64,000 nt of DNA from Mangrovimonas sp. YM274 (GTDB lineage: Bacteria > Bacteroidota > Bacteroidia > Flavobacteriales > Flavobacteriaceae), in assembly GCF_030908385.1 (NCBI RefSeq), contig NZ_CP133091.1, positions 3,405,501 through 3,469,500 of the forward strand, given 5' to 3'. Every line of letters starts with the position of its first letter. Position 1 is the stretch's first letter. Shown one piece after another: positions 30,949-54,042 of the stretch. The notes under the pieces were generated by a model, which was not told the origin of the DNA, did not search any database, and was given only the letters and a program-made list of their open reading frames with translations. The translations under genes were made by a program, and so were the position numbers.

Positions 30949-33900
30949 ATGTCGAAAATTACTTTTTCATTCTTATTCTTGTTGTTTTCAATAAACATAG
31001 GCATCGCCCAAGACATTACCTTGGCAGCCATTGATAATGACAATTCTAATGACCCCACCTTAACAGGTAGTGCCCTCTCTTTGTCCTCTGAGGGCTTCAC
31101 AATAGGCCCTGGCATTTCTCCACAAATAGCAACTGCCGCTTTTACCGCCAACAATTGGGTTGTAAACGGGACAGAAGTAGACGCTACTGAATATTTTCAA
31201 TGGTCCATAACCGCAGATACAGGTTATGACGTTGTTGTAAATGGTATCCAAATCGAGTTGAGACGAAATATTTCAGGACCCAATAATTATGTAATCCAGT
31301 ATAGTACTGACAACTTTGCTACTCCAGGTACAATTGCCGGAAGCGGAACGCTTCCTGTAGATTTAACTAATTACAACCCAAACTTCACATCCTTAAACAT
31401 ACCTTCCGGTACAGGTGGCACCATTACCTTTCGCTTATATGCATGGGGAGCAACCTCTAATGCTGGTTGGCTACGTGTAATGAGTGTAAATGCTTGGGAC
31501 GAACTTGGAATCGAAAATGCTGGGGCCCTAATTACAGGAACCGTAACAGCCAATACCCCCAACAGTACTGAATCGGATATTATAAGTACAGCCTTTGACC
31601 CAGAGGACAATTTCGATTACAGAGATTATATTGTTACTACGGGATTAACTACAGAAAACGCCTTACAGATTGGGGAATTTGAAATACGTGACGGGGGAGC
31701 TTCTGCACCAGATGCAGATAATCAACCTACTATTCTAACCGATCTTGGATTCACTATTTCCAATTACGAGAATATTGCAACCTTGGCACTTATGGACGCT
31801 CTTGGAACTAACGTCGCGGAAATAACCTCTGTTGGTGAAAATACACAGTTTTTGGATATCTCAGGCTTACAAACAGAAGATGACGAATCCAACACCTTTA
31901 GCTTGTATGCCACATTCAAGACAGAGGTAACAGATAATGATCAAATTCATGTCACGATTACAGACGCTGCAGCCGATGCTATTAACGGCTCAATTTTTGC
32001 GAGTATAGATGCAGGAGGCGCTGCAACCCCGATTACAGGAGATGATAACCGTATAGAGGTTACTGCAGGTCAAATTGTGTTTGACCAACAGCCTACAGAC
32101 ACCAATATTTATGAACTAATGGTACCATATCCAACCTTATTGGCTGTAGATGATAATTTAAATGTAGACTTGGACTACGACTTATCCCTAATTGTTTTCT
32201 CTACGGGTGACATGGAACCACCTTCAGGCAGCTACAATTTTGTGGATGGTATTGCAGTATTGGATGCAATTATGTTTACAAGTGAAGATACAGGGGTTAT
32301 ATTATTCGTAAACTCCAACGGCTTCAATGTTACAAGTAGTACCTTTAATGTTAACGGCCCTTTGTTTACTATAGCCCAACAAGATTTTGACGGAAGTACT
32401 CCCGAATGGTCTTATACGACAGATTTAGCTTTCTTTGGTTCTTCTTGGGGAGAAGCTTATTACGGAATTGTCGATGCAGCATCGGCTACACCACTAAGCA
32501 AACCTGAATTTTCAGGAAATATTTTAGGGATAAACGATTTAAGCAATGGGACTACACCAACAACCTACACTACCATAACCTTTGAAGATGTAGATGTTAC
32601 TATTTTCAACAATATAATATTGACCTTCGATTGGGAAGTGATTGGCTTTAACAATGATAATGATGATGTACAATATCAATTAGTAATAGATGGTATAGGA
32701 CAAGGTTATCAATTCCTATTTGAAGGGGACAACAATAGTCTCATTCAAGATGGTTCTGGATCCGAAACCATTGCTATTCCAGACACTGCAAGCACCGTGG
32801 GCTTACAAATTCAAATAAGTAACAACAACCTTAATGATTTTGCCGGTTTTGACAACTTTAGACTAAAAACCGCCTTTGACGGTTTGGTATATAGTAACAA
32901 TAACTGGTTGAACTCTGAAGCTCCAGATGGCACAACAAACTCTGAAAGCGCCTACATTTTAAGCGGGACTTATAATATTGGTACCAATGTTGGTTTAAAC
33001 CACCTTTTAATCAATGAAGATGCAGCTGTCACCATTTCCCTAGGTCAGTCACTGACTTTAGATGGCAGTATTATCAACAACGGAACTTTGGAACTTAACT
33101 CTGTTTCTACTTCTTACTCAAGTTTAATAGTAAATGGCAATGTTGAAGGAAATGTAATTTACAACAGACATGTAAATGAAAACCAAAGTGTAGGCGGTAA
33201 CGACTTGGTTGCCCCTCCTGTAACAGGCCAATCCTTTGGGGACTTTGCAGAAAATAATGCCAACATTTTATCAAATCCTTCTACTCCTACTCAGAAACTT
33301 TTTGGACCATTTGACAAACCGACAGGAAGCTACCTTCTTTACGATTCCCTTACCGATGCCAGTATTATTTTATCGGCAGGTACTGGATACCGAGCAGCTT
33401 CCTCTGATTTAGGTGGGTCAACATTCGCATTCGAAGGTTCAGTAATCACTGAGAGTGTGATTTTACCAATAACCAATGTTGGACCATCATTTGCTATGTG
33501 GAACTTAATTGGTAATCCTTATCCGTCTTATTTGAATTTATCCGCCTTCTTAAGCGCTAATAATTCCCAGTTCAACACCAACTATTCTGGTATCTATGGC
33601 TACGATGGGAACGCACAGGATGGATGGAGCATCTGGAACCAAGCCTATTCTGATGCCCACCCTAATGCTAAATTGACACCTGGTCAAGGTTTCTTCGTGT
33701 CTTCTGCCACAAACTCTGGCTCCATAAGCTTCACAACAGCTATGCGTACCACTGGAACAACAGACGATTTTATAGCTGGACGAATGGACAACACAAGTCC
33801 TCATAAAGGCTTTTTTAGCTTGGAATTATTCAATGAAAATGATTTTTTCCAAACCGAATTTTATTTGAATGACAATGCAACTCTTGGTTTTGACCAAAAT

Positions 33901-34479
33901 TACGATTCCGCTATTTTTGGAAGCACACCTACATTTTCAATATATTCAAATTTAGTAGAGGACAATGCAAATTTCCCATTGGGAATACAATCATTGCCGG
34001 GAACTGTCACGGAAACCACTGTTATTCCTTTAGGCATTCATGCAAATCAAGGAGAACAAATAAGCATTGCTCTTTCCAACTCAACATTGAACCCTGATGT
34101 AGAGGTATACCTAGAAGATAACGTAAAGAATGTTTGGACCTTACTAAACAATTCAAACTATACCTTAACACCTAGCGTTAACCTTAGTGGGACAGGAAGA
34201 TTCTATTTACACCTTTCCGCAAATACTTTAGGTTTGGAACAAAGTGATTTAGACTCTCTTAAAATTATCGCTAGTAACAAAACCATTAAAATAATTGGTA
34301 ATATACTTAAAGGTACTTCCCTTAAAATTTATGACATCCAAGGACGATTAGTTTTAAGTGAGCATACTTCCAGACATACCACTTCGCATACAATTGATGC
34401 AGTATCTTTAAAAAATGGCACTTATATCATAGAAGTTGAAAATGAAAATGGAATAAAAACAAAAAAACTTATTTTATAG
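30949..34479 (+). CDS. Large secreted protein with type IX secretion C-terminal sorting domain
   Basis: A 1176-residue protein with a signal peptide (hydrophobic FSFLFLLFSINIGIAQ, cleavage probably after Gln21). At the end is a type A T9SS sorting domain: SLKIYDIQGRLVLSE, then LKNGTYIIEVENENG and the basic end KTKKLIL. Between them are beta-rich, Asp/Asn/Thr-rich segments. One, about residues 480-645, has a jelly-roll-like, MAM- or lectin-type flavour (ILTFDWEVIGFNNDNDD, AGFDNFRLK). A later segment carries NLIGNPYPSYLN, common in large flavobacterial surface proteins. No catalytic motif is seen. It should be exported by Sec, crossed by T9SS, then anchored or released at the surface. Function unknown; adhesion or matrix binding is plausible beside a polysaccharide locus. 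Confidence 0.85.
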   Translation: MSKITFSFLFLLFSINIGIAQDITLAAIDNDNSNDPTLTGSALSLSSEGFTIGPGISPQIATAAFTANNWVVNGTEVDATEYFQWSITADTGYDVVVNGIQIELRRNISGPNNYVIQYSTDNFATPGTIAGSGTLPVDLTNYNPNFTSLNIPSGTGGTITFRLYAWGATSNAGWLRVMSVNAWDELGIENAGALITGTVTANTPNSTESDIISTAFDPEDNFDYRDYIVTTGLTTENALQIGEFEIRDGGASAPDADNQPTILTDLGFTISNYENIATLALMDALGTNVAEITSVGENTQFLDISGLQTEDDESNTFSLYATFKTEVTDNDQIHVTITDAAADAINGSIFASIDAGGAATPITGDDNRIEVTAGQIVFDQQPTDTNIYELMVPYPTLLAVDDNLNVDLDYDLSLIVFSTGDMEPPSGSYNFVDGIAVLDAIMFTSEDTGVILFVNSNGFNVTSSTFNVNGPLFTIAQQDFDGSTPEWSYTTDLAFFGSSWGEAYYGIVDAASATPLSKPEFSGNILGINDLSNGTTPTTYTTITFEDVDVTIFNNIILTFDWEVIGFNNDNDDVQYQLVIDGIGQGYQFLFEGDNNSLIQDGSGSETIAIPDTASTVGLQIQISNNNLNDFAGFDNFRLKTAFDGLVYSNNNWLNSEAPDGTTNSESAYILSGTYNIGTNVGLNHLLINEDAAVTISLGQSLTLDGSIINNGTLELNSVSTSYSSLIVNGNVEGNVIYNRHVNENQSVGGNDLVAPPVTGQSFGDFAENNANILSNPSTPTQKLFGPFDKPTGSYLLYDSLTDASIILSAGTGYRAASSDLGGSTFAFEGSVITESVILPITNVGPSFAMWNLIGNPYPSYLNLSAFLSANNSQFNTNYSGIYGYDGNAQDGWSIWNQAYSDAHPNAKLTPGQGFFVSSATNSGSISFTTAMRTTGTTDDFIAGRMDNTSPHKGFFSLELFNENDFFQTEFYLNDNATLGFDQNYDSAIFGSTPTFSIYSNLVEDNANFPLGIQSLPGTVTETTVIPLGIHANQGEQISIALSNSTLNPDVEVYLEDNVKNVWTLLNNSNYTLTPSVNLSGTGRFYLHLSANTLGLEQSDLDSLKIIASNKTIKIIGNILKGTSLKIYDIQGRLVLSEHTSRHTTSHTIDAVSLKNGTYIIEVENENGIKTKKLIL

Positions 34480-34498: not shown

Positions 34499-34528
34499 TT
34501 TGATAATGTAAATATTTTGTTACTTTTG
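34499..34528 (+). promoter_or_regulatory. Bacteroidetes-type promoter for the small-peptide module
   Basis: TTTG at 34,499-34,502 is followed after 18 bases by TACTTTTG at 34,521-34,528, an exact match to the TAnnTTTG -7 element of Bacteroidetes housekeeping promoters. A start site near 34,535 would leave only about a dozen leader bases before the ATG at 34,547. It implies that the peptide and the two genes behind it are transcribed independently of the T9SS gene. Confidence 0.6.
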
Positions 34529-34546
34529 ACACAACACGATTGTCTT

Positions 34547-34711
34547 ATGAAAAAAGGGAAACTAAAAGATAATATTACTCGAAAAGAAGCCATATCCAAA
34601 ATGGGCAAGTATGCAGCTCTTACAGCTATGGGTACCTTTTTAATTTTAACCCCAGCAAGGGCCCAACAGGAATCTTTACCCCCTGATCCCGGAGGCCTAC
34701 CTTGGGATTAA
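34547..34711 (+). CDS. 54-residue peptide with leader/signal-like N-terminus and PPDPGGLPWD tail
   Basis: I do not recognise a named family. From the ATG at 34,547 the peptide has a charged start, NITRKEAISKMGKYAAL, a hydrophobic stretch AALTAMGTFLILTPARA, then a short tail ending ESLPPDPGGLPWD. The first part looks like an export signal of Tat style (RK instead of RR) with an ARA-Q cleavage point; it also fits a RiPP-type leader followed by a Pro/Gly-rich core. A TTG further upstream (34,517) is unlikely because the promoter -7 element lies there. The next gene, with a PqqD-like domain and a kinase domain, begins 20 bases downstream, so co-expression is likely. Function is unknown. Confidence 0.62.
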   Translation: MKKGKLKDNITRKEAISKMGKYAALTAMGTFLILTPARAQQESLPPDPGGLPWD

Positions 34712-34731
34712 TCAATTAACATTTTCGTTTT

Positions 34732-35866
34732 TTGAACTCACATTTACAACCTAAATATAAAAGCACGATAGGATCAACTATCGTGCTTTGGTTTTTCAAT
34801 AGCAACCGTTATGTAGTTGTAGATAATATCACAGGTAAATTTATTGAGGTATTTTTAGCCTCAAATTCTATTGAAGATTTCAAAAATAGGTTATCTATTG
34901 AAAGCAAAACAAACTCAAAAGAACTCTATCTTGATATTAAGAATTTTCTAACAGATTGCAATCAAACTAATTTTGAAGAAATTCAAACTGAATACACAAA
35001 TCATGATCATATAGCCCCACCAAGTAATACCTTTGAATATTCTATTTTCGATCAGAAAATACAAATTAATTATGAATCAACATTTATACAATCTTATTTA
35101 CATCCTAAGCTAAAACAATTATCGAAAACCCACCTAACCGGAAACACCTGCTCCTTCACTATCACAACAAACAAAAACCATTTATTACTTTTCAAGAACA
35201 AAGAGTTCCAGTATGCTTTCCTAAAAAAAGACTATCATAAGCTTCAAGGAAAATTTAATTTTTTGTTGTTATGTGAGCTTTACAATAAACAAGAATCAGA
35301 TTGGTTGGGAACCTTTCATGCCTCCACCTTAGGCAATGAAAAAGAGGCTATCATGTTAATAGGCGACTCGGGGAATGGAAAAAGTACTTTAAGTGCTCTT
35401 CTTATGGCTCATGGTTTGGATTTAATATCCGATGACATAACAGCTATGCTAGCTGACAATTTACATGTCTACAGAAACCCAAATGCTATTTCTATCAAAC
35501 AGGGAGCTTTTGAGGTGCTCAAACCATATTTCCAAAAACTGGATTCCTACGATGATGTTTTCATCAATAAAACCAAAGGGTACGTGAAATATATCCCGCC
35601 TTCTAACACCAACCCTAAAAAAATTTGATTTCCCTTGCAATAAGATAGTCCTAGTAAAATATGACCAAAATACACCTAGCACTTCGCTATCAGAATTAAA
35701 TCCAGCTAAAGCCCTCGAAACGCTCATACCTGAATCTTGGATTTCACCAAATCCTGAGCATGCTAGATTGTTTTTGAATTGGCTGGAGTCTGTAGAATTT
35801 TATTCATTAACCTATAACAACAACGACCAAGCTATCACTACCTTTAACTCGTTATTTTCGAATTAA
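34732..35866 (+). pseudogene. PqqD-like/HprK-like kinase with frameshift at an A7 tract
   Basis: Starting at TTG (no ATG is available), residues 1-80 resemble a PqqD-type peptide-recognition fold (NRYVVVDNITGKF). From about 190 an HPr-kinase-like domain follows: WLGTFHAST, the P-loop GDSGNGKST (211-219) and LISDDITAM (232-239). The frame stops at 35,626 just after AAAAAAA (35,617-35,623). Removing one A lets translation continue as KKFDFPCNKIVLVKYD to a stop at 35,864, giving about 377 residues with an HprK-like C-terminal half (ESWISPNPEHARLFLNWLES). So the gene is frameshifted, reads through by slippage, or is miscalled there. Related HprK-like proteins phosphorylate peptides or occur beside exopolysaccharide genes; the substrate here is unknown. 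Confidence 0.75.
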
Positions 35867-35898
35867 TCGTATATTACCTTTCAATAACCGAAGCATCT

Positions 35899-36939
35899 AT
35901 GCCCTCTTTAAAACCGACATTTTTTAGGATTGCGCATATCTTAAGTTTTGAATCTGATAATTCTAAATTACAACAGGAGTTATCCTCTCCTGACATGGAT
36001 TGGGACAACTTAGTGAGAGTTGCAAGCAGCCACCTAATTCTTCCGGCTATTTATAATAGATTAAGAACAAAAAATTTACTCGGCACACTTCCTGAAGACC
36101 TTGTTTTATACCTAGAAGAAATCAACAAATTAAACCTAGAGCGAAACAAACAAATCTTTTCTGAAATAGAATTTATAAGTCAGTTATTCTCCAAATACCA
36201 AATCAACCATGTATTTTTAAAAGGTGCTGCGATGTTAGCCAGCGGATTATACAAAAGTTTATCAGAACGAATGGTTGGAGATATTGATATATTGATACAA
36301 GAAAACCAAATTGAACAAGCTTTTGAGCTCCTCAAAAACCAAGGCTACAACAAGCTATTTAAATTTAATTACGAGGTTAAAAATTACCGGCACTACCCTA
36401 GACAAGTTTCAGAAAATAGATTAGCTGCAGTCGAATTACACACAGGTTTGTTAAAATTTGCACATAATCAATTAATAGATCTGGATAAAATGCTACAAAC
36501 CAAGCAAAGTGTAAATGGCATTTCAATACCCAGCAACTTTTATCTCAACTTACATAACATATTAAGCTGGCAAATTAACGACCATGGCTTCTTTTATAAC
36601 CGCCTTTCACTTAAGAATAGCTATGACAGCCTTGTTCTTGGTCTATATCAGAATAAAGATTTGTTATCATCCCTTCTTCCCATTAAACATTGTACTGCCT
36701 ACATTTGTTTAAACGCCGTCATATTTGAAGAATACAGCCATATAAAATTCAATAGCAACCTCAAATTAAAACAGTATAACTACCTTAACTCTTTAAAGCA
36801 TCAAGGTTATGCAATGGTCAATTACAACCTAAAATACGCCTACATTAACGCAAAGAAAAGAGTGGTTACCTTTACAACTAACAAGAGTTACAGAAGTCAT
36901 ATTCTCAAAAATAAGTTTTTCAATAGAAACAAACACTAG
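35899..36939 (+). CDS. Nucleotidyltransferase-fold protein (PF14907-like)
   Basis: A 346-residue protein. HVFLKGAAMLASGLY and then RMVGDIDILIQ (GDID at residues 127-130) match the glycine motif and paired acidic metal ligands of the uncharacterised nucleotidyltransferase family PF14907. A following helix-rich half has no clear second domain. Proteins of this family recur next to HprK-like kinases and PqqD-like domains in exopolysaccharide and peptide gene clusters, which is the arrangement here (32-bp gap from the kinase). The nucleotide and target are unknown. The last four bases overlap the convergent MtfA-like gene. Confidence 0.75.
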   Translation: MPSLKPTFFRIAHILSFESDNSKLQQELSSPDMDWDNLVRVASSHLILPAIYNRLRTKNLLGTLPEDLVLYLEEINKLNLERNKQIFSEIEFISQLFSKYQINHVFLKGAAMLASGLYKSLSERMVGDIDILIQENQIEQAFELLKNQGYNKLFKFNYEVKNYRHYPRQVSENRLAAVELHTGLLKFAHNQLIDLDKMLQTKQSVNGISIPSNFYLNLHNILSWQINDHGFFYNRLSLKNSYDSLVLGLYQNKDLLSSLLPIKHCTAYICLNAVIFEEYSHIKFNSNLKLKQYNYLNSLKHQGYAMVNYNLKYAYINAKKRVVTFTTNKSYRSHILKNKFFNRNKH

Positions 36940-37790
36940 TACCCCGCAAAGTGGAAATTTAGCATCTGCTTGGTCTTATCATAAATTTCAGGAAACAAGG
37001 ATTGAAACTCTTTAGGCGTCTCTATAAAGGTTTCAATAATAACCGCTATAAACTCAAATTGGTTGGTATAGGCATAATTCCTAAAATATTCCGACTCAAT
37101 GAGCGCTTTACGTAACCCTTCATCCTTTGCCAACAAATCAATCAATTCCTTGAATGAATCCGCAAAAATTGTTGCACTCACATCCTTTTCCTTGTAACTA
37201 TTTAAATGAATGGCATGAGCAAATTCGTGTATACCCAAGTTTAAATTGTCATTTTCAATTTCATAGCCTGCTTCAAAATCTTTCCAAGACAATACCAAAG
37301 CCTGCAATTTGGGGTTAAATTCTCCCTTATGATAAGATTCGTTCATATTAGAATAGAAGGCTTCTGGATAAATAAAAATTTTATCAATAAGACCTATATA
37401 AAAATCTCTAAACCCAAAAGTTAACATAACAGCAGTGGCGGAAATAAGCACCTTCATCTCCTCTGACACCTTAACACCCCCTCTTCCAATAAAATCCTTG
37501 TCTGCAATAAAGGAAGCTACCCTATGCTCAAAAAAACGTTGTTGTTTTGGGTACAACTTTTTGTAAAATGTAAATTTATTTCGAAGAATGGCTCGCTGGC
37601 TCTTATTTAAGGATTTCAGCAAAAAGGGAACATGTACATATAACGGCCTTTTATAGGCTATTACATACCTGAATTCCACCATGCGCCACACAAAATAAAT
37701 AAGCATGAATAGAAGCCCTACTAAAAACACACCCAATATATTAGAATCTACCCCCTCCAAAATAGTAATCAATTTGTAATTCAATTTCAC
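36936..37790 (-). CDS. MtfA-like zinc metallopeptidase (M90 family)
   Basis: A 284-residue protein with one N-terminal membrane span (about residues 17-36) and a cytoplasmic or periplasmic domain of the MtfA (Mlc titration factor) family. The zinc site is HEFAH (188-192) in LNLGIHEFAHAIH, and FIADKDFIGRGGVKV plus IYPEAFYSNMNESYHKGEF are family segments. In E. coli MtfA binds the repressor Mlc; no Mlc is expected here, so the peptidase role is the safer call. The membrane anchor is absent from E. coli MtfA but common in Bacteroidetes relatives. Convergent with the PF14907-like gene, overlapping 4 bp. Confidence 0.82.
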   Translation of the reverse strand: MKLNYKLITILEGVDSNILGVFLVGLLFMLIYFVWRMVEFRYVIAYKRPLYVHVPFLLKSLNKSQRAILRNKFTFYKKLYPKQQRFFEHRVASFIADKDFIGRGGVKVSEEMKVLISATAVMLTFGFRDFYIGLIDKIFIYPEAFYSNMNESYHKGEFNPKLQALVLSWKDFEAGYEIENDNLNLGIHEFAHAIHLNSYKEKDVSATIFADSFKELIDLLAKDEGLRKALIESEYFRNYAYTNQFEFIAVIIETFIETPKEFQSLFPEIYDKTKQMLNFHFAGY

Positions 37791-38601: not shown

Positions 38602-40566
38602 TTAATCTACGTTGTCGTGTAAAAATGAATTGTTACTTCTTAACTGAATGTCATCGTTGTCGTCAGTTCCAACGGACATCCTGGAAGCATTGGTTTCAGA
38701 AGAGTGTTGAGACTCTTCCAAATTCACACCCTGTCGTTTGTAAGCAGGTTCTTTTTCTATTTCGTCAATCTTTGCTGTATTGAATTTATAGTTGAAATCC
38801 TTCATTTTACGACGTCTCTCATCAGCACGCTCCTTTAGCAAGTCTGAGATAGGACTGTTCATAGGGTCCAATTCTTCAACTTCTCTTTTTTGAGGTTGTT
38901 CCGGCTGTACCACCTTACGCTCAAAAACAATATCTTCTTCTACCTTTTGCTCCTTTTTAACTTTTGTTTGACCATTTGAAGCCTCATCATCCATAAAATC
39001 GTCCAAAGCATAACGTTTTTCTCCATTTTCATTGGCTTCAGTTACAGGAACCACCTCAATATGGTCGTTTACTTTTATGTTTTTGATCTCTCTAATGCTT
39101 CTTATTTCATCATCAAGATTGAATAACATTTTAGGTTCATTGCCCATTGGATGCTTAGGTTTTTCCTCCTTTTTAGAAGGAGAAAGCGGCAAATCGAATG
39201 TTAAGGATATTTGCTCTTCCTGCTCATATTCTTTTGGAGCTTTCTTTTCTTCCTGCACCTCTTGAACTGGCGTAATGATAAAATCTTCTTCACTCATGGT
39301 TTTGTGATCCAACACTTCCTCATAAGACACATTGATGTTTCTTATAAATTCTGTAGTTGGAATCAATTCAGAATGCGTCTCGGGTTGTGACACCTCTTCC
39401 TCTTCTTCCTCATCCATTAAAGTATGCACCACCATTTTAGGAGCTTTAGGCTCTTCTTTTTCCAAAACAATATCTGGAGTAATGATCGCCGGATCTTGTT
39501 CCTTCACCTTTACTTCATCTTTATCATCTTCAAGGGCGTGCACTACCTTTTTTATTTCGGTATTTGAAATTTCGTGTTGTTGATCAATATTAAACCCAGT
39601 AGCAATAATGGTTACAGAAATAGATTCTTGAAGCGACTCATCTTCACCAACCCCCATAATGATATTAGCACCATGTCCAGCTTCGTTTTGAATATGATCA
39701 TTGATTTCTCCAATTTCATCTATAGTAATTTCCTGAGATCCAGAAACGATAAGCAACAATACGTTTTTGGCTCCAGTAATTTTATTATCGTTCAACAATG
39801 GCGAATCCAAAGCTTTCATAATAGCTTCCTGTGCACGCGTTTTCCCTGACGCACTAGCCGATCCCATTATAGCAGTTCCACTATTGCTCAATACGGTTTT
39901 GGCGTCACGTAAATCGATGTTTTGGGTATAGTGATGCGTAATTACCTCTGCAATACCTCTTGACGCAGTCGACAAGACTTCATCTGCTTTGGAAAATCCT
40001 GCCTTAAACCCTAGGTTACCATAAACTTCACGCAGTTTGTTGTTATTGATAACTATTAAAGAATCTACATGACTTCTCAGTTTTTCAATTCCTTTTTGGG
40101 CTTGTTCGTTTCTTGTCTTTCCCTCAAATTGAAAAGGCATGGTCACAATTCCCACAGTTAAAACATCCAGTTCTTTCGATAATTTGGCGATTACAGGAGC
40201 TGCTCCAGTACCAGTTCCTCCGCCCATTCCCGCAGTAATAAATACCATTTTTGTATTGGTATCCAACATGCGTTTGATATCTTCTAAACTTTCCAAAGCA
40301 GCTTGCTCCCCTACTTCTGGGTTGGCACCTGCTCCTAATCCTTCGGTTAAATTAACTCCTAATTGGATCTTGTTTGGGACACCGCTATTTTGCAGTGCTT
40401 GAGAGTCGGTATTACAAATCACAAAGTCAACACCCTTGATTCCTTGCTGGAACATGTGGTTAATGGCGTTGCTTCCTCCACCTCCAACACCAATCACCTT
40501 GATAACGTTGGATTGGTTTTTTGGTAAATCGAATGCAATATTCCCAAATTCGTTGTTGTTGCTCAT
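38602..40566 (-). CDS. ftsZ: Cell division GTPase FtsZ
   Basis: The tubulin-like protein that forms the Z-ring at the division site. The GTP-binding domain shows VIGVGGGGSNAINHM (about 24-38), CNTDSQAL, and the tubulin signature AGMGGGTGTGAAPVIA (GGGTGTG at 115-121). At 654 residues it is far longer than E. coli FtsZ (383). The extra length is a roughly 330-residue, strongly acidic, low-complexity C-terminal linker with runs of Glu, ending in a short conserved peptide NNSFLHDN. Long FtsZ linkers are usual in Bacteroidetes. Last gene of the dcw operon; ftsA lies 30 bp upstream. Confidence 0.97.
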   Translation of the reverse strand: MSNNNEFGNIAFDLPKNQSNVIKVIGVGGGGSNAINHMFQQGIKGVDFVICNTDSQALQNSGVPNKIQLGVNLTEGLGAGANPEVGEQAALESLEDIKRMLDTNTKMVFITAGMGGGTGTGAAPVIAKLSKELDVLTVGIVTMPFQFEGKTRNEQAQKGIEKLRSHVDSLIVINNNKLREVYGNLGFKAGFSKADEVLSTASRGIAEVITHHYTQNIDLRDAKTVLSNSGTAIMGSASASGKTRAQEAIMKALDSPLLNDNKITGAKNVLLLIVSGSQEITIDEIGEINDHIQNEAGHGANIIMGVGEDESLQESISVTIIATGFNIDQQHEISNTEIKKVVHALEDDKDEVKVKEQDPAIITPDIVLEKEEPKAPKMVVHTLMDEEEEEEVSQPETHSELIPTTEFIRNINVSYEEVLDHKTMSEEDFIITPVQEVQEEKKAPKEYEQEEQISLTFDLPLSPSKKEEKPKHPMGNEPKMLFNLDDEIRSIREIKNIKVNDHIEVVPVTEANENGEKRYALDDFMDDEASNGQTKVKKEQKVEEDIVFERKVVQPEQPQKREVEELDPMNSPISDLLKERADERRRKMKDFNYKFNTAKIDEIEKEPAYKRQGVNLEESQHSSETNASRMSVGTDDNDDIQLRSNNSFLHDNVD

Positions 40567-40596
40567 ATAATTAGTTCTTTACTGGATTTATATTAA

Positions 40597-41943
40597 TTAT
40601 TCTGCGTTATCTAAAAAATCTTTAACTCGTTCCGTTAGTTTGTCCAAAAAGGATTTTCGCTCCTTTCTAGGCGGTTCAACAGGTTGCTCTTGTTCTTCTT
40701 CTGTCGCTTCCGAAGCAGGTTCAACTTTGGTTTCTTCAACCATTTCTTGTTCCTCAGCCTCCTTTTCTACCCTTCTACGTTCTTGACGCTTTAAGCCGTC
40801 CATAACCAAACCAACCGCTGTAGCATATAGAGGGCTTGCCACATCTTCGTCACTATCTCCTGCCAAATGTTCATTAGGATATCCTATTCTGGTATCCATC
40901 CCTGTAATATATTCCACCAATTGCTTTAAGTGCTTTAATTGGGCGCCACCACCTGTTAACACAATTCCGGCAATTAGTTTCTTTTTTTGTTCTTCGTGTC
41001 CGTAGTTTTTGATTTCTACATAGACTTGCTCTATGATCTCAACTACTCGCGCATGGATGATCTTAGACAGGTTTTTCAAGGTAATTTCCTTAGGTTCCCT
41101 TCCTCTCAGACCTGGAATAGAGACAATCTCATTATCCTTATTCTCTCCTGGCCATGCCGATCCAAATTTTATTTTTAACAATTCGGCCTGCTTTTCGATA
41201 ATTGAACAGCCCTCCTTGATATCTTCAGTAATCACATTTCCTCCAAAAGGAATTACCGCCGTATGACGAATAATCCCATCTTTGAAAACGGCCAAATCCG
41301 TAGTACCTCCTCCTATATCGATAAGTGCTACACCGGCTTCCTTTTCTTCTTGACTCAAAACAGCATTGGCAGATGCCAATGGCTCCAAAGTAATCCCTTC
41401 GAGCTCCAATCCAGAACTCTTGACACATCGACCAATATTTCTAATAGACGATACTTGTCCTACCACCACATGAAAATTAGCTTCCAAGCGGCCTCCGTAC
41501 ATCCCAATAGGCTCCTTGATCTCCGCTTGACCATCAACCTTATATTCCTGTGGTAATACATGGATAATCTCTTCTCCCGGCAACATCACCAATTTATGAA
41601 CCTGATTAATTAACATATCAATATCTTCGTCATCTATAACCTTATCGGAATTTGGACGAGTAATATAATCACTGTGCTGCAAGCTTCTGATATGCTGTCC
41701 TGCAATACCTACAGTTACCCCTTCAATTTTATAGCCTGATTCAGTCTCGGCTTCTTGAACCGCCTGTTGAATGGATTGAATGGTTTGGGTAATGTTATTA
41801 ACCACACCTCTGTGCACACCTAAGCTTTTGGATTTTCCAATTCCAAGAATCTCAACCTTCCCGTAATCATTTTTACGGCCAATCATAGCCACAATTTTTG
41901 TGGTCCCTATGTCTAATCCTACTGAAATTTTATTGTTTTCCAT
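40597..41943 (-). CDS. ftsA: Cell division protein FtsA
   Basis: A 448-residue actin-like ATPase that tethers FtsZ to the membrane. It starts KISVGLDIGTTKIVAMIG (phosphate-1 loop). GVALIDIGGGTTDLAVFKDG is the second phosphate loop and ITEDIKEG with AGIVLTGGGAQLK gives the adenosine loop. A charged, Glu/Lys-rich insert near residues 385-430 precedes the C-terminal helix KSFLDKLTERVKDFLDN, the likely membrane-binding amphipathic helix. Neighbours are ftsQ (3-base gap) and ftsZ. Confidence 0.96.
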   Translation of the reverse strand: MENNKISVGLDIGTTKIVAMIGRKNDYGKVEILGIGKSKSLGVHRGVVNNITQTIQSIQQAVQEAETESGYKIEGVTVGIAGQHIRSLQHSDYITRPNSDKVIDDEDIDMLINQVHKLVMLPGEEIIHVLPQEYKVDGQAEIKEPIGMYGGRLEANFHVVVGQVSSIRNIGRCVKSSGLELEGITLEPLASANAVLSQEEKEAGVALIDIGGGTTDLAVFKDGIIRHTAVIPFGGNVITEDIKEGCSIIEKQAELLKIKFGSAWPGENKDNEIVSIPGLRGREPKEITLKNLSKIIHARVVEIIEQVYVEIKNYGHEEQKKKLIAGIVLTGGGAQLKHLKQLVEYITGMDTRIGYPNEHLAGDSDEDVASPLYATAVGLVMDGLKRQERRRVEKEAEEQEMVEETKVEPASEATEEEQEQPVEPPRKERKSFLDKLTERVKDFLDNAE

Positions 41944-41946
41944 TCT

Positions 41947-42669
41947 TTACTTTTTGGTGCAGATGACCTGATTATCAAATTTTAAGTTCACCGTGCTGTA
42001 ACTGTCAAGGGTTTTATCTTTATAGGCCTTCTGGTAAAATGCCTTGAGATTGTTTATTTTCTTATCCAATTTTTTCAAACTACCAAACTTTATTACAAAG
42101 TCGTTCAACCTAAACTTCACATCTATGGATTTGTCTCCGTTTTGATGAATTTCAACAACATGCTGCCTTAGAAATTGATCTGTATAAACTTTGTTAGCAA
42201 TCTTGTATACGTTCTGCAAGTCATTCTTGAGCACATTTCCAGTAACTATTGGTACTCTTGCCGAATAATTTGCAGACAAAGGCATGTAGGAACCTTCGGT
42301 ATCTATGTAATAGGATGCGTTTGTATTTACTCGAGCAATAGGTTGTTTTTGCTCAATTTCTGTGGTGATCACTCCATCAACACTCATAAATACTTGAGCC
42401 TCCTTTATTAACGGGTTGGAATTCAGGGCAGTCTCCAAGTATTTCAAATCTATAATTTCTTTAGGCTTGTTTGCAATAGGTTGTTCATTTTGTATTAACA
42501 ACTTACTAACAGTCTGAGGTGTAATGAATAAGTTATCGTCACCTAAAAAATTAATTTCAGGTGTACCAACCTTCCGCTTCGCATTTCTTACAGAGGAAAA
42601 TGCAAACAGCCCACTCACCATAATGAGCACGATCATCAACTTTATATTTCCTTTGTTAATTCGCAACAC
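41947..42669 (-). CDS. ftsQ: Cell division protein FtsQ
   Basis: A 240-residue bitopic protein with one N-terminal span (KLMIVLIMVSGLFAFSS) and a periplasmic part containing a POTRA-like region (EINFLGDDNLFITPQTVSKL) and a following beta domain (IEQKQPIARVNT, YYIDTEGSYMPLS). FtsQ links early and late divisome proteins. It diverges strongly in sequence, and the call rests on topology, POTRA-like pattern and position between murC and ftsA. The start overlaps the murC 3' end by 14 bp. Confidence 0.88.
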   Translation of the reverse strand: MLRINKGNIKLMIVLIMVSGLFAFSSVRNAKRKVGTPEINFLGDDNLFITPQTVSKLLIQNEQPIANKPKEIIDLKYLETALNSNPLIKEAQVFMSVDGVITTEIEQKQPIARVNTNASYYIDTEGSYMPLSANYSARVPIVTGNVLKNDLQNVYKIANKVYTDQFLRQHVVEIHQNGDKSIDVKFRLNDFVIKFGSLKKLDKKINNLKAFYQKAYKDKTLDSYSTVNLKFDNQVICTKK

Positions 42670-44011
42670 TTAACGCCTGTTTTATAGATTGCACTTCTTC
42701 TCCTATATCGCCTGCCCCCAATGTTAAAATCACGGTGGCTTCGGATTCCTTTATAGCCGAAATCAATTCCGGTTTTTCAACCAAAGACTTATGGCTGTTT
42801 GATACTTTATCCAACAACCATTGCGACGTCACCCCTTCAATTGGCAACTCCCTAGCCGGATAAATGTCCAATAATAGCAATTCATCAAATTTTGACAACT
42901 GTTCGGCAAATTCATCTGCAAAATCTCGCGTTCTACTGAATAAATGGGGTTGAAACACCGCCAAGACCATTTGCCCTGGATACATTTCCCTTACAGCTTC
43001 ATATACCGCTCTAATTTCTTCTGGATGATGCGCATAGTCATCAATGAATACCCTATCATTTGTTTTAATATGATAGGTAAATCTACGTTTAACCCCCTTA
43101 TAAGACGCTAATGCTTTGGCGAGCTGCTGGCGAGGGACTCCATATTCTGCAGACATCGCCAAGGCAATTAACGCATTCGACAGATTGTGTCTACCAGGTA
43201 GGTTAAATTTGAAATCTTCAAGAATGGTTCCATTAGGTGTTTTTACATCAAACACATAAGCCCCATCTTCTATTCTAATATTTTGTGCAGCATAGTCGGA
43301 ATCATCCTCTATGCCGTATGTTATTCCTTTTAAAGGCAAACCATTTCTAACAAACAGTTTCCCCTCTGGTTTCAACTGCTTTGTAAACTGTACAAAAGAT
43401 TCATGAATTGCCTCCTTTTCTCCATAAATATCCAAATGATCTGCATCCATGGAGGTGATACAGGCCATATCTGGAAATAAGGTCAAAAAGGACCTATCAA
43501 ATTCATCGGCTTCCACAACGGTCACCTTAGTTCCCTCCAAAATCAAGTTGGAATTGTAATTTTGACTGATACCTCCTAAAAAAGCGGTTACTTCAACCCC
43601 ACATTCCTTCAACAAATGCCCTAGTATACTGGTGGTGGTGGTTTTTCCATGCGTTCCCGCTACAGCTAGACAGAAGGTTTGCTTAGTAATTTCTCCCAAC
43701 ACCGCCGAACGCTTCATTACCATAAAACCATTGGACTTGAAATATTCCAATTCTTTGTGATCTTTTGGCACCGCAGGAGTATACACTACTAAAGTATTTT
43801 CAGAATTTAGAAAACGCTCATCAATTTGATCTACAGCATCTTCAAAATGTACTTTAATATCGAGTTCTTCCAAAGCAACTGTCACTTCGGTTTTGGTTTT
43901 ATCATACCCAGCCACATACTTATTGTTGGCCGCAAAATATCGCGCCAAAGCACTCATGCCAATGCCCCCAATTCCTATAAAATAGACGTTATGTATGTGT
44001 TTAAATTCCAT
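42656..44011 (-). CDS. murC: UDP-N-acetylmuramate--L-alanine ligase
   Basis: A 451-residue Mur ligase adding L-alanine to UDP-MurNAc, the first step of the peptide stem, in the cytoplasm. FIGIGGIGMSALARYF is the UDP-binding start, AVAGTHGKTTTTSILG the ATP P-loop, and VEADEFDRSFL and DYAHHPEEIRA are conserved Mur-ligase motifs. The sizes of the three domains are normal. It is positioned between murG (adjacent, no gap) and ftsQ. Confidence 0.96.
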   Translation of the reverse strand: MEFKHIHNVYFIGIGGIGMSALARYFAANNKYVAGYDKTKTEVTVALEELDIKVHFEDAVDQIDERFLNSENTLVVYTPAVPKDHKELEYFKSNGFMVMKRSAVLGEITKQTFCLAVAGTHGKTTTTSILGHLLKECGVEVTAFLGGISQNYNSNLILEGTKVTVVEADEFDRSFLTLFPDMACITSMDADHLDIYGEKEAIHESFVQFTKQLKPEGKLFVRNGLPLKGITYGIEDDSDYAAQNIRIEDGAYVFDVKTPNGTILEDFKFNLPGRHNLSNALIALAMSAEYGVPRQQLAKALASYKGVKRRFTYHIKTNDRVFIDDYAHHPEEIRAVYEAVREMYPGQMVLAVFQPHLFSRTRDFADEFAEQLSKFDELLLLDIYPARELPIEGVTSQWLLDKVSNSHKSLVEKPELISAIKESEATVILTLGAGDIGEEVQSIKQALSVAN

Positions 44012-45106
44012 TTATTTCTTTAAAAGCTTTTCAACTTCATCCACAATGTCCTTGGTAGCATTTACCAAAGCCAATGTCTTAATATGTTTACTTAACGATT
44101 CTCTTTCCTCTTTTGAACCCAATAATTTTGAGAACTCAGGTTGAAAATCGGTATCTAGGTCTTGTTCTTTTATCATTACCGCAGCCTGTTTTTCAACAAT
44201 GGCCATGGCATTTTTAGTTTGATGGTCTTCGGCTACATTTGGTGACGGAATAAAAATCACTGGTTTTCCAACCACACATAATTCTGACACCGAACTTGCA
44301 CCTGCTCTGGAAATGATGACATCCGCCGCAGCATAAGCCATATCCATATTGTTCAAAAATGGATGCACCTGTACACCTTCCATTTCATTGTAGCGTTTGT
44401 ATTGCTGATAATACAACTTGCCACATTGCCAAATTATCTGGACATTTTGCTCATGCAAATACTCCAGTTGGCTTTCCACCAATTCATTTATTCTTCTAGC
44501 CCCAAGACTCCCTCCCAAAACTAACAAAGTATGTTTACCATGTTTTAATTTGAAGATGTCTTTGGCTTCAATCGTTTTATTGTCAATTTCCAATAAATCC
44601 TGACGGATTGGATTTCCCGTTTTTACCAATTTTTCCTTTGGAAAAAAACGCTCCAAACCATCATAGGCCACACATATTTTATCCACCTTCTTAGCCAAAA
44701 GCTTATTGGTGATTCCTGGAAAGGAATTCTGCTCTTGGATCAAACTTGGAATATGCTTGGAAGACGCTACATACAGTAACGCCCCACTGGCAAATCCACC
44801 AGTACCAATAACGATATCAGGCTTAAAACTTTTTATAATTTTTCGGGAACGCAATAAGCTAAGTCCCAATTTAAAAGGAAACATGGCATTTTTGAAAGTC
44901 AACTTGCGTTGAATTCCAGAAATCCACAACCCTTCAATAGAATATCCTGCCTGAGGCACCTTTTCCATCTCCATTCTATCACTAGCACCCACAAACAAGA
45001 ATTTAGCCTTGGGGTAACGGGACTTCAATTCATTTGCAATGGCAATGGCAGGATAGATATGACCTCCTGTGCCGCCTCCAGACAATATGATTTTATAGTT
45101 CCCCAT
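44012..45106 (-). CDS. murG: UDP-GlcNAc:lipid I N-acetylglucosaminyltransferase MurG
   Basis: A 364-residue GT28 enzyme converting lipid I to lipid II at the inner membrane. [18 protein letters not shown] (residues 7-24) and [13 protein letters not shown] are MurG glycine loops. [19 protein letters not shown] is the donor-sugar site and [12 protein letters not shown] the family HQxxNA-type equivalent. Start and ftsW stop share one base (TAATG arrangement), implying coupled translation. Confidence 0.97.
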
Positions 45107-46305
45107 TATATCGCTTCACTTAAAATTTCAAGTGGATTTTCCTCTATATTTATTTCTTCTTGCTCCTTTACCCCTTCTCGCTGAGCACTCACGCTCAAAA
45201 TGATACCAACCGCCAAACAAGTCATCCAAATTGAGGTCCCCCCGCTACTTATAAGCGGAAGGGTTTGCCCCGTAACAGGAAACAGTTCGACAGCAACTGC
45301 CATATTGATTAGTGCCTGAAATACAATTGGCAAACCAACACCAAGCACCAATAATTTCCCAAAGACAGTATCAGACTTTTGGGATACAATCACGATTCTA
45401 AACAAAAACCACGAGTACATTAACAACAAAAACAACCCACCTAAAAGGCCGTACTCTTCAATGATGATTGCAAAGATGAAATCGGATGATGACTGTGGCA
45501 AAAAGTTCTTTTGAACGCTTTTACCTGGTCCAACTCCCTGGATGCCTCCAGACGCAATGGCTATTTTGGCTTTTTCTATTTGATAATCTTCTTCGGTGTC
45601 TTCACCATTGGAGAAATTTTCTATACGGCTGATCCACGTGTCAACCCTATTGGGCATTAAATCGGGGAATGCCTTTGCTACCAAAACAAAGAATGCCAAA
45701 GCTAAAATTCCAGAACCTACTATAACTGCCAAATACCGTATGGGGTACCCACCAACAAAGGTCAGTACCAATACCATAGCAAACATTATGGCTGTTGTTG
45801 AAAAATTCGCCGGCAAAATTAATATTAATACTAAGAAAACAGGCATCCAAAGCGGCAAAATACTTTCCTTAAAGGACACTTTTTTATCCTGAATTTTGGA
45901 AAGGTATCTAGCAACGTAAACCATTAACACTACAAAAGCCAATGTGGAAGTTTGAAATGACATCCCGACGATTGGAATTTGTATCCATCTACTGGCATTA
46001 GCTCCCTCAATAGTAGTTCCCTGAAGCATTGTAACAACCAACAATACCAAAACAACAGGCAACATTACCATAGATAATCCCCGAAAATAGCGATAAGGGA
46101 TTTTATGGGTACCATACATGATTACAAAGCCCAAAAGCAAATGCACAAAATGCTTCACAAAAAATGTAAATGTGCTTCCCCCACCCACAGTATATGCCAA
46201 ATTACTGGAAGCACTGTAAACAGGAAGGAATGAGAAAATTGCCAACAAAGCCACTATAGCCCATATTAAACGATCTCCTTTTATATTTTTATACAATTTT
46301 TGCAC
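45106..46305 (-). CDS. ftsW: Lipid II polymerase / division protein FtsW
   Basis: A 399-residue SEDS-family membrane protein with about ten spans. [23 protein letters not shown] is the long periplasmic-loop signature of FtsW/Rod[21 protein letters not shown] and [15 protein letters not shown] carry the residues of the catalytic and PBP-contact region. It acts with FtsI as a septal glycan polymerase. Its place between murD and murG supports FtsW rather than RodA. Confidence 0.95.
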
Positions 46306-46325
46306 GCTACTGCTTACTTTATAAT

Positions 46326-47657
46326 TTATAGATTTCTAACCGCTTCTTTAAATTGACGACCGCGATCTTCATAGTTTTCAAACAAATCGAAACTCGCACA
46401 AGCAGGTGATAGTAATACATTGTCTCCAGCCTCTGCCAGCTTGTATGCCATTTTAACGGCCTCTGTCATACTCTGGGTTTCCACAACAACATCTACCATA
46501 CCAGAGAAACTATCCATTAATTTTTGATTGTCTACACCTAAACAAATGATGGCTTTTACCCTTTCGTTTACAAATCGGAACAATTCTTCATAATTGTTTC
46601 CTTTATCCTCTCCCCCAACAATCCATACCGTAGGTGCATCCATACTTTCCAAAGCAAAATAGGTTGCATTTACATTGGTAGCTTTGGAGTCATTTATATA
46701 CTGTACTTTATTTATTTTAAGCACATTTTCCAATCGGTGCTCCACACCTTGAAAGTTCTCCAAACTTTCACGTACCGTTTGTTTTCTAATTCTTAGTAAA
46801 TGCGCCACTGTGGAGGCCGCCATGGCGTTCTTCACATTGTGTTTACCTTCTAGTGCTATACTTTTTGTAGGCATAATTATATGGTTGTTATCAATTGTTA
46901 TTTTAATATTTTCATTGTCTAAATAGGCGCCATTCTCCAGAGTTTTCGTCAAAGAAAACGGCAATAATCTTGATTGTACAGGATGCCTCTCTAACCATTC
47001 ATTGATTACCTCGTCATCGGCATCGTAGATCAGGTAATCATCCTTAGTCTGGTTCATGACGATTCTAAATTTGGATTCGATATAATTTTCAAACTTATAA
47101 TCGTACCTATCCAAATGATCAGGGGTAATGTTGGTGATCACGGCAATATGCGGTTTGAAATCCACGATATCATCCAGTTGAAAACTACTAATCTCCAAAA
47201 CATAGTTGGGATAGTCCTTTTCCAGAATCTGTTTTGCAAAACTATCGCCAATGTTTCCCGCCAATCCAACTTCCAGTTCCTGTTTGAGAATGTGATGGGT
47301 CAACGACGCAGTGGTTGTTTTACCATTACTCCCTGTGATTCCGACAATAGTAGCATCGGTATATCTTGATGCAAATTCTATTTCCGAAATCACGGGAACG
47401 CTGGCTGCTATTAACCGTCCTATCAAATTCACTTTATTAGGAATACCTGGACTTTTCATTACTAGGTCTGCATTGAGAATCTTAGCTTCTGTGTGCTGCT
47501 CTTCCTCCCAATCAATCTCATGATGTATAAGAACCTGTTTATATTTTTCTTTTATCGTTCCCTTATCGGAAACAAATACTTCAAAACCTTTTGCTTTACC
47601 TAAAAGCGCCGTTCCTACGCCACTTTCGCCGCCTCCAAGAATGACCAATCGTTTCAT
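46326..47657 (-). CDS. murD: UDP-N-acetylmuramoylalanine--D-glutamate ligase
   Basis: A 443-residue ligase adding D-glutamate to UDP-MurNAc-L-alanine. LVILGGGESGVGTALLGKA starts the UDP domain. GITGSNGKTTTASLTHHIL is the ATP P-loop, TPDHLDRYDYKFENYIESK and VEHRLENV are typical of MurD, and YINDSKATNVNATYFALES is its hallmark segment. The gene abuts mraY on one side and is 20 bp from ftsW on the other. Confidence 0.96.
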   Translation of the reverse strand: MKRLVILGGGESGVGTALLGKAKGFEVFVSDKGTIKEKYKQVLIHHEIDWEEEQHTEAKILNADLVMKSPGIPNKVNLIGRLIAASVPVISEIEFASRYTDATIVGITGSNGKTTTASLTHHILKQELEVGLAGNIGDSFAKQILEKDYPNYVLEISSFQLDDIVDFKPHIAVITNITPDHLDRYDYKFENYIESKFRIVMNQTKDDYLIYDADDEVINEWLERHPVQSRLLPFSLTKTLENGAYLDNENIKITIDNNHIIMPTKSIALEGKHNVKNAMAASTVAHLLRIRKQTVRESLENFQGVEHRLENVLKINKVQYINDSKATNVNATYFALESMDAPTVWIVGGEDKGNNYEELFRFVNERVKAIICLGVDNQKLMDSFSGMVDVVVETQSMTEAVKMAYKLAEAGDNVLLSPACASFDLFENYEDRGRQFKEAVRNL

Positions 47658-48899
47658 CTATCTAATTTTCAAGGTCACTATGGACAGTATGGCCAACAAT
47701 ATTCCCACAATCCAAAATCGCGTTACAATCTTACTTTCGTGATAGCCCGATTTTTGATAGTGGTGATGCAAAGGCGACATCTTAAAAATGCGTCGGCCTT
47801 CACCAAATTTCTTCTTCGTATACTTGAAATAACTTACCTGCAATACCACCGATAAATTTTCAGCAAGGAAGATTCCACACAACACTGGGATTAACCATTC
47901 TTTTCTAACTGCTATGGCTATTACAGCGATAATTCCCCCTATAGTCAAACTACCGGTATCCCCCATAAACACCTGAGCAGGATACGTGTTGTACCACAAG
48001 AATCCTATTAACGCCCCAACAAATGCCGTAATGTAAATGGTAATCTCCTCCACCCTTGGTATGTACATAATGTTGAGATAATCAGAAAAAATAATGTTAC
48101 CCGATACCCAGGCAAAAATTCCCAAAGTGAGCACTATGATTGCCGAGGTTCCCGCTGCCAAACCATCAATTCCATCGGTTAGGTTCGCCCCGTTAGACAC
48201 TGCAGTAATAATAAAAATGGCCACGACCACAAATACAATCCAAGCATATTGTTTCAAATCTGGATGAATCCATGTAATTAAATCGGCATAATCAAACTCA
48301 TTTCCTTTCACAAAAGGAATGGTTGTTTTTGTAGACTTTTCCTCTTCCTGAAACAACTTTGAAGGCGACACGTTAGGATCTTGTTTCAAAATTTCTTGTT
48401 GCTGAGCTAATGGCAGCTTTTCCTTAATCGTTACATTATCATTGAAATACAGCGCAGTACCAACGATAACACCCAAACCAATCTGTCCCATCACTTTAAA
48501 ACGCCCCTTTAGCCCTTCTTTATCATTTTTGAATTTCTTGATATAATCATCAATAAACCCAATGGCTCCCATCCAAACCGTGGTAACAATCAACAACAAA
48601 ATGTATACGTTATCCAATTTTGCCAATAAAAGCACCGGAATCAAAGTCGCCATAATGATAATGATTCCTCCCATAGTTGGCGTTCCTGCCTTTTCAACTT
48701 GGCCTTCAAGACCTAAATCCCTAATGGTTTCACCCACCTGTTGTTTACGCAGAAAATTGATAATACGCTTTCCATAAATGGTAGAAATCAACAGAGACAA
48801 AATAATGGCAATTGCCGCCCTGAATGTTAGATACCCAAAGAGTGATGCCCCAGGAAACTGGAATTCTTTTTCTAAATATTCAAATAGGTAATACAACAT
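47658..48899 (-). CDS. mraY: Phospho-N-acetylmuramoyl-pentapeptide transferase MraY
   Basis: A 413-residue integral membrane enzyme that moves phospho-MurNAc-pentapeptide to undecaprenyl phosphate, making lipid [34 protein letters not shown] (Asp pair), [10 protein letters not shown] and [15 protein letters not shown] are family motifs. A loop of about 70 residues after [10 protein letters not shown] (near 150-220) makes it longer than the about 360-residue E. coli enzyme, as usual in Bacteroidetes. Confidence 0.97.
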
Positions 48900-48909
48900 T
48901 GGCTACTTC

Positions 48910-52370: not shown

Positions 52371-52374
52371 GCTT

Positions 52375-52692
52375 CTACTGCTGCGATTTTATTCTTATTT
52401 TTCTAGGAGGAATTTCCGAAGGAAACACTCCTTTCTCCGACATTTTTTTTACTAAAGACGATTCCATCTTAAGCCTCATCAATTGCGAACGCCCATCTAC
52501 AAAAGCCGAACGCAACTCCTTCACCTCATTATTTAAGCGTGCAATCTCATGCACTTTTTTATCGGCACTATGAGAACTTGCAATCATAACTAGGGCCAAG
52601 ACAGAAATAAAAATGATAACCCTCCAATTTTTAAAAGAATCATCACTAACTAAAAACTTCCCTTTCAGAATACTATAAACATTGTTTTTCAT
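52375..52692 (-). CDS. ftsL: FtsL-like division protein
   Basis: A 105-residue bitopic protein: a short cytoplasmic head, a span WRVIIFISVLALVMIASSHS, then a charged helical stretch KKVHEIARLNNEVKELRSAF with heptad-like spacing, consistent with the FtsL/FtsB coiled coil. Sequence identity in this family is very low, so the call rests on topology and position between rsmH and ftsI. The first bases overlap the rsmH stop by 4 bp. Confidence 0.82.
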   Translation of the reverse strand: MKNNVYSILKGKFLVSDDSFKNWRVIIFISVLALVMIASSHSADKKVHEIARLNNEVKELRSAFVDGRSQLMRLKMESSLVKKMSEKGVFPSEIPPRKIRIKSQQ

Positions 52693-53597: not shown

Positions 53598-54042
53598 CTT
53601 GTCCCATTACTTCTTCAGCCAAATCAGCAAAATCTTCAGCTGCATCGTCTATAGACTGTTCATACTTATCTTTATCCCAAATTTCAACGATATTAATGGC
53701 CGACGACAACACTATCTCTTTGGAAATTCCCGAAAAGGCAATTAAATCTTTTGGAATAAGCAAACGGCCCGCAGTATCCACTTCCACCATTTTCACACCT
53801 GCCGTAAAACGTCTAATAAAATCGTTGTTCTTTTTCTTAAACCGATTAAGTTTGTTCATCTTTTGCATGAGCTTCTCCCACTCTGCCATCGGATACAATT
53901 CCAGGCAAGGTTGAAACACTGCTCGCTTAAGCACAAAACCATCCTGAAATACAGGAGAAAGTTGTTTTTTAAGCGCAGAAGGCAACATTAACCTACCTTT
54001 GGCATCAACTTTACATTCGTATGTCCCTATTAATGAATTCAA
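53572..54042 (-). CDS. mraZ: Transcriptional regulator MraZ
   Basis: A 156-residue protein with two SpoVT/AbrB-like swapped-hairpin repeats: GTYECKVDAKGRLMLPSALK and VKMVEVDTAGRLLIPKDL, each carrying the family D-x3-R core (DAKGR, DTAGR). MraZ forms ring oligomers that bind direct repeats upstream of its own gene and represses the dcw operon. Three such repeats lie at 54,094-54,123. First gene of the operon; a charged acidic tail (about 130-156) follows the second repeat. Confidence 0.95.
   Translation of the reverse strand: MNSLIGTYECKVDAKGRLMLPSALKKQLSPVFQDGFVLKRAVFQPCLELYPMAEWEKLMQKMNKLNRFKKKNNDFIRRFTAGVKMVEVDTAGRLLIPKDLIAFSGISKEIVLSSAINIVEIWDKDKYEQSIDDAAEDFADLAEEVMGQDDDEYGIS

Follow-up and report, generated by a model that had tools for sequence, protein, structure and literature searches.

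The findings presented here indicate that a 64,000-nucleotide stretch of the genome of Mangrovimonas sp. YM274 (hereafter the window) carries a module in which genes for a cargo protein of type IX secretion (T9SS), a short precursor-like peptide, an HprK-like kinase bearing a RiPP recognition element (RRE) and a PF14907 nucleotidyltransferase (NTase) follow one another on the plus strand. Comparison across genomes makes it almost certain that these four genes are one inherited set, and we cautiously read the locus as a system that modifies a peptide and is dedicated to one subfamily of surface proteins exported by T9SS. An earlier note on this DNA, made from its sequence alone, had delimited a module of peptide, kinase and transferase; it left out the cargo gene, which belongs to the system.

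The cargo gene (30949..34479, plus strand) encodes 1176 residues with a secretion signal-like N-terminus and a type A sorting tail (Por_Secre_tail, PF18962; E=6.8e-9, 36.3 bits against a cut-off of 27). Such a gene lies directly 5' of the peptide, on the same strand and within 1 kb, in 94 of 97 related peptide loci, most of the orphan peptides included. All 94 upstream cargos share with the window cargo a C-terminal module of about 480-560 residues (32797..34476, plus strand), which is specific to peptide-associated cargos, has the sorting tail at its end and in nearly all members matches no Pfam family besides that tail. A module-bearing cargo is also found directly upstream in 22 of 24 further peptide loci. 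Because the window genome contains 67 sorting-tail matches but one cargo module and one peptide, the peptide-associated cargos form a subfamily. In a sample of the family comprising 151 genomes, almost one per genus, full-length copies of the cargo module score at least 497 bits and the next best genome 198 bits, and module homologues above 200 bits occur only in system-bearing genomes, bar one genome that is 80% complete. In the genomes G446, G221 and G352, a peptide gene follows immediately 3' of 18 of the 21 module cargos, with a single kinase match per genome, and up to seven cargo-peptide pairs are present in genomes with one kinase-NTase pair. Judged by gene content, this shows that a single kinase and NTase can serve several cargo-peptide pairs located at separate places in a genome. 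The pairing of cargo and peptide is not strictly one to one, since cargos outnumber peptides in G098, G401 and G046 (six versus one in the last), and some peptide loci in small-genome MAGs have no adjacent cargo.

The 54-residue peptide described in the earlier note is encoded at 34547..34711 on the plus strand, with the sequence given there, MKKGKLKDNITRKEAISKMGKYAALTAMGTFLILTPARAQQESLPPDPGGLPWD, and consists of a signal-like leader and a short P/G-rich tail. By scanning a collection of species genomes with a peptide alignment we confirmed 393 relatives. In this alignment a charged n-region and the conserved core I[TS]RKEA[IL]xKMGKYAALTAxGTF are followed by L-N-P and then by an A-Q-x-x-S-x-P junction. 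The leader positions I10, R12, A15, G20, T26, G29 and P36 are conserved, which on sequence comparison exceeds what a signal peptide usually needs. The tails are P/G-rich and often terminate in F or W plus D or N. The earlier note had made conservation of the tail a check on its reading, and we find that leader and tail motif are kept and that a single tail residue and no other, Ser43 (codon 34673..34675, plus strand), is invariant, in 85 of 85 and in 120 of 120 distinct peptides, while the neighbouring tail residues vary. This serine is the proposed phosphosite; if the peptide were cleaved after A-Q-A, it would become residue 2 of the product. The relatives' peptides contain no Cys, and among the 120 distinct peptides none has a twin arginine in the n-region, T-R-K-E-A being merely Tat-like, or the [Y/W]xxP motif found in the leaders of lasso peptides and of linear polyphosphorylated peptides (LPP). 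Pfam and NCBIfam searches with the peptide return no family.

The kinase gene of the window begins with TTG and its open reading frame (34732..35628, plus strand) covers the N-terminal 298 residues, as assigned from Pfam and NCBIfam matches, an alignment and the structure model of a homologue. The window ORF matches Pfam Hpr_kinase_C (E=5.6e-4) and NCBIfam HprK_rel_A (E=8.5e-13), and HprK families match all 59 kinase homologues. The best family match is HprK_rel_A (TIGR04352), which is covered over nearly its full model length (E=1.4e-20 for the intact homologue L081), with a score for the best-matching member of 73.5 bits that lies under the curated cut-off of 200 bits. In the alignment His196, the motif GxSGxGKST (in the window GDSGNGKST, 35362-35388, plus strand) and the Asp-Asp pair at 234/235 are invariant. 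An AlphaFold model built from the 59-member alignment with L081 as its first row (pLDDT 94) returned only PEPCK/HprK folds in Foldseek, so the N-terminal 93 residues were modelled separately (pLDDT 86). They adopt a beta3-alpha3 layout of three strands and then three helices, and the ten PDB entries that they match best are without exception RREs, among them TbiB1 with its leader, CteB, FusB1 and SkfB, at probabilities of 0.90-1.00 and with marginal E-values of 0.02-0.45, a modest level that a domain this short would be expected to give. Thus the earlier description of the protein as a PqqD-like domain joined to an HPr-kinase-like domain stands for the HprK-type kinase and, according to the homologue's model (mb43cfdcfba73), for the N-terminus at the level of the fold; the RRE, a winged-helix domain, is placed by alignment at 34756..34968 (plus strand). 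It does not extend to the PqqD family itself, as PF05402 is absent from the listed Pfam matches of the 59 homologues, nor to an intact reading frame in the window.

The third gene of the earlier description, a PF14907-type nucleotidyltransferase of 346 residues (35899..36939, plus strand), is confirmed with E=2.8e-33 and 116 bits against a cut-off of 31.2. The alignments keep its catalytic motifs K-G, R-x2-G-D-x-D and E-x-H, with D128, D130 and E179 invariant. Inspection of the kinase and the NTase reveals no evident secretion signal, and no relative of PF14907 with a solved structure was found. In about six genera an outer-membrane-barrel-like protein of approximately 190-200 residues is encoded 3' of the NTase (L022:8319-8891, L023:9083-9679, L024:6772-7329, L025:8762-9346, L026:7044-7655 and L027:2036-2611), three of these proteins with a weak OMP_b-brl match. 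It is possibly a fifth component, treated as optional because it is absent from the window. In the window a Peptidase_M90 gene (36936-37790, minus strand) shares a few bases with the NTase gene at its stop, and the module sits between a large polysaccharide/glycosyltransferase cluster (415-30135, minus strand) and an ftsZ-ftsA-mur cell-division cluster (38602-54042, minus strand). The conserved mur/fts and M90-peptidase neighbours were considered as parts of the system and judged to be local synteny.

The earlier note had asked whether the peptide recurs beside the kinase and the transferase, and it does. When the best 80 of the 393 relatives were examined as loci, in Winogradskyella, Psychroserpens, Gelidibacter, Polaribacter, Lutibacter and others, kinase and NTase were found downstream of the peptide in 69, nearly always directly and in two about 3.4 kb away. 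Of the 151 family genomes, 15 have the peptide, 15 the kinase and 14 the NTase, weak kinase and NTase matches being left out, and pairwise Fisher tests on this full sample give p values from 7e-16 to 9e-20, uncorrected for kinship between genera. Of the sample, 127 genomes are near-complete (at least 90% complete, contamination no higher than 5%), and in this subset one and the same set of 12 genomes has the peptide, the kinase, the NTase and the cargo module; the genomes discordant for parts of the system have incomplete assemblies. Peptides at a large distance from the only kinase-NTase pair are seen in G124 and in four members of a single genus (G446, G221, G352 and G401). The link between peptide and enzymes is therefore more than synteny, as these distant peptides are still in the same genomes as the pair. 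Beyond the family the kinase is confined, within the phylum sample, to two incomplete genomes, both from one other family of the same order. One locus (L033:4916-7219) shows the order cargo-peptide-NTase-kinase instead of cargo-peptide-kinase-NTase, and another (L152:1080-3003) contains five near-identical tandem ORFs of 119 residues (MVRAHVGPQIKAALGLLFYIKTRS...), possibly a repeated tRNA-adjacent endonuclease-type unit.

The peptide is preceded in the window by a Bacteroidota-type promoter-like element, TTTG-N18-TACTTTTG (34499..34528, plus strand), which the earlier note had read as an exact promoter of the module. The string is there, but TTTG-N18-TAnnTTTG strings occur six times in the window against 4.1 expected, which is not above chance. 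It is the position, conserved in relatives, rather than the string alone that upholds the claim: TAnnTTTG is found within 150 nt upstream of 73 of 97 related peptides versus 11 of 83 kinases and 22 of 83 NTases, and it mostly ends 15-24 nt ahead of the peptide ATG. A -33 TTG is weakly conserved upstream of the relatives' peptides (14 of 73).

We propose that the RRE fused to the kinase would bind the conserved peptide leader (ITRKEA..KMGKYAALTA) and that the HprK-like domain would then phosphorylate the invariant serine just behind it, in the way that LppK acts on Ser3, its only site, of LPP cores (PMC13381572). By this analogy, action of the kinase on the serine appears likely. The NTase could next add a nucleotidyl or sugar group to the phosphoserine, as proposed for PsmN in pseudomycoidin, a step that by analogy may just as well occur as not. 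The leader, with its positive n-region, hydrophobic stretch and A-Q-A type end, would double as an export signal, and a short phosphorylated P/G-rich peptide would reach the periplasm or the surface. There it might act together with the cargo encoded beside it, the simplest version being a cofactor or anchor, bound or attached, for the shared C-terminal module, although we see as much reason to doubt such a direct role as to accept it. The RRE fold, the catalytic residues of kinase and NTase and the invariant acceptor-type serine all fit peptide recognition and modification. The suggestion of the earlier note that the peptide is recognised by the PqqD part and modified by the enzymes gains from recurrence, from the conserved leader and tail and from genome-wide co-occurrence, while recognition and modification themselves are what we infer from these. 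Against this explanation we count the lack of a leader peptidase or exporter gene in the module, the marginal E-values of the RRE matches, the absence of [Y/W]xxP, the excess of cargos, the cargo-less MAG loci and the frameshifted kinase of the window.

The same enzyme pair and single core serine are found in LPP (PMC13381572), and genomes with several precursors are typical of RiPPs. The module could thus make a linear, LPP-like phospho-RiPP whose product is free and secreted as a signal, an antimicrobial or a matrix component, the T9SS gene being only a co-regulated neighbour without direct molecular contact. We regard this as rather improbable, since the upstream cargo is one subfamily in 94 of 94 cases and not any T9SS protein, co-occurs genome by genome and stays paired with the peptide even far from kinase and NTase, and since the module has no recurring gene for export or immunity. 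The resemblance of the leader to a signal peptide, the exopolysaccharide (EPS) cluster that adjoins the module and the dedicated linking sugar to which P. gingivalis T9SS cargos are attached (PMC7468200) are also compatible with an ordinary small exported or membrane protein, next to enzymes whose target is something else, for instance a glycan or a lipid connected with EPS or with the anchoring of T9SS cargos. This is more improbable still in view of the RRE fold on the kinase, a leader conserved beyond the needs of a signal peptide, the invariance of the serine and the tight co-occurrence of the peptide with the enzymes. The alternative of the earlier note, that the module regulates the neighbouring exopolysaccharide locus, draws on the EPS genes seen upstream of it in the window, in L021 and in L034, and on sugar-nucleotide genes in L024, L028 and L029. 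We rejected it on context and consider it very improbable: several relatives keep the module away from such genes (none adjoin it in L022, L023, L031-L033 and L198-L201), the module lacks a DNA-binding regulator, and its co-occurrence is with T9SS cargos.

A separate question, which concerns this strain alone and is compatible with any of these readings, is whether the module has decayed and become non-functional here. An A7 run in the window (35617..35623, plus strand) carries a one-base insertion, so that the kinase stops at 35628 after 298 of about 377 residues; both same-genus homologues have A6 at that run and are intact at 376-377 residues. Broken kinases elsewhere, in L106 and probably in L050, might favour decay as well. 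The Lutibacter locus L106 has a second, fragmented kinase next to extra peptides (L106:8312-8661), and in the MAG locus L050 two overlapping kinase ORFs (L050:787-1927) probably represent another broken kinase. In the window, however, peptide, NTase and cargo are all intact, and homopolymer indels are common assembly errors. The P-loop and the Asp-Asp motif lie 5' of the frameshift, and the displaced C-terminus of about 78 codons (35630..35866, plus strand, in another frame), recognised by its translation and by a separate HMM match to kinase-profile positions 297-378, shows 22.5 synonymous and 9.5 nonsynonymous differences from L034 (pS 0.44, pN 0.05). Judged by these ratios it is still under purifying selection, which suggests that the system was broken recently or that the extra base is an assembly error. 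Decay is thus possible, but on the whole we doubt it. Comparison of the window kinase (34732-35866) with its same-genus homologues (L034:8115-9248 and L021:7476-8606) also reveals a mosaic, in which a catalytic stretch of about 104 codons is far closer to L034 (pS 0.14) than its flanks are (pS 0.62 and 0.44). This suggests recombination. Sequence change is rapid in the N-terminal half with the RRE and the linker (pN 0.24-0.29).

Transferases of the PF14907 type and HprK-like kinases are repeatedly met together, both in peptide clusters and near polysaccharide loci, and here a presumed substrate can be named, a peptide with one invariant serine that in a wide range of flavobacterial genera is linked to one defined class of secreted surface proteins. 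That the set is common to many marine flavobacteria suggests a chemically decorated small peptide serving a particular family of secreted surface proteins. The cargo partner offers a phenotype that can be assayed, secretion or attachment, which makes the purpose of a phosphopeptide directly testable. If our preferred reading of a modification system dedicated to T9SS cargos is true, a small-peptide component would be added to T9SS biology. We offer with more reserve the tentative idea, which we think unlikely at present, that a subfamily of T9SS surface proteins has as its dedicated anchor, linker or cofactor a short, genetically encoded peptide with a phospho-modification (nucleotidylated or glycosylated), in which case the secretion or sorting of proteins in Bacteroidota would have RiPP-type chemistry built in.

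In exosortase/PEP-CTERM genomes, members of the HprK_rel_A family are accompanied by PqqD-like proteins and NTases. The kinases described here differ from that family (TIGR04352) in their fused RRE, their association with T9SS and not with exosortase, and their score of 73.5 bits versus 200. In the open-licence papers searched, where absence is no proof, we found no peptide partner, RRE or kinase for T9SS, no RRE-kinase fusion of this kind and no pairing of T9SS with HprK, PqqD and NTase proteins. What appears to be new is this fusion, together with the signal-like leader and the pairing with T9SS cargos. The statement of the earlier note that this is not a known RiPP class needs updating, as both LPP (PMC13381572) and pseudomycoidin use the same enzyme pair. 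Pseudomycoidin and paeninodin are lasso peptides (PsmK and PsmN, PadeK; PMC8498205, PMC9266682) that likewise employ an HprK-like kinase for a precursor serine and an NTase. In pseudomycoidin the serine is phosphorylated by PsmK, and PsmN attaches a hexose to that phosphate; PsmN may be a new kind of glycosyltransferase or may act after nucleotidylation (PMC9266682; PMC8498205). In our module the predicted modification would fall on an internal serine near the leader, unlike their C-terminal one, and the modules lack a lasso D exporter and, on inspection of their gene lists, contain no macrolactam cyclase (C) or B2 protease. Closer is the LPP family (LppA-K-B-S-D-N, Paenibacillus), published in May 2026 and stated as restricted to Bacillota, for which the activity of LppN and the biological role of the modified peptides are given as unknown (PMC13381572). 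The two share a linear precursor with a conserved N-terminus and a variable tail, an RRE, an HprK-like kinase, an NTP transferase, a single serine near the leader/core junction and the lack of a cyclase, and both may lie near polysaccharide loci. They differ in that the LPP RRE is discrete, while here it is fused to the kinase N-terminus and no separate RRE gene was seen in the modules; inspection of gene lists likewise revealed no recurring SpI-like leader peptidase or MsbA-like exporter around the modules, and the YxxP leader motif is missing. The module thus probably works like LPP but is not filed as LPP, since it lacks the discrete RRE, the SpI peptidase, the exporter and the YxxP leader, and it is a system of Bacteroidota paired with a T9SS cargo. 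In this pairing it resembles T9SS type A sorting (PF18962) with its A-LPS linking sugar (PMC7468200), where a sorting tail is likewise present and dedicated chemistry accompanies attachment to the surface.
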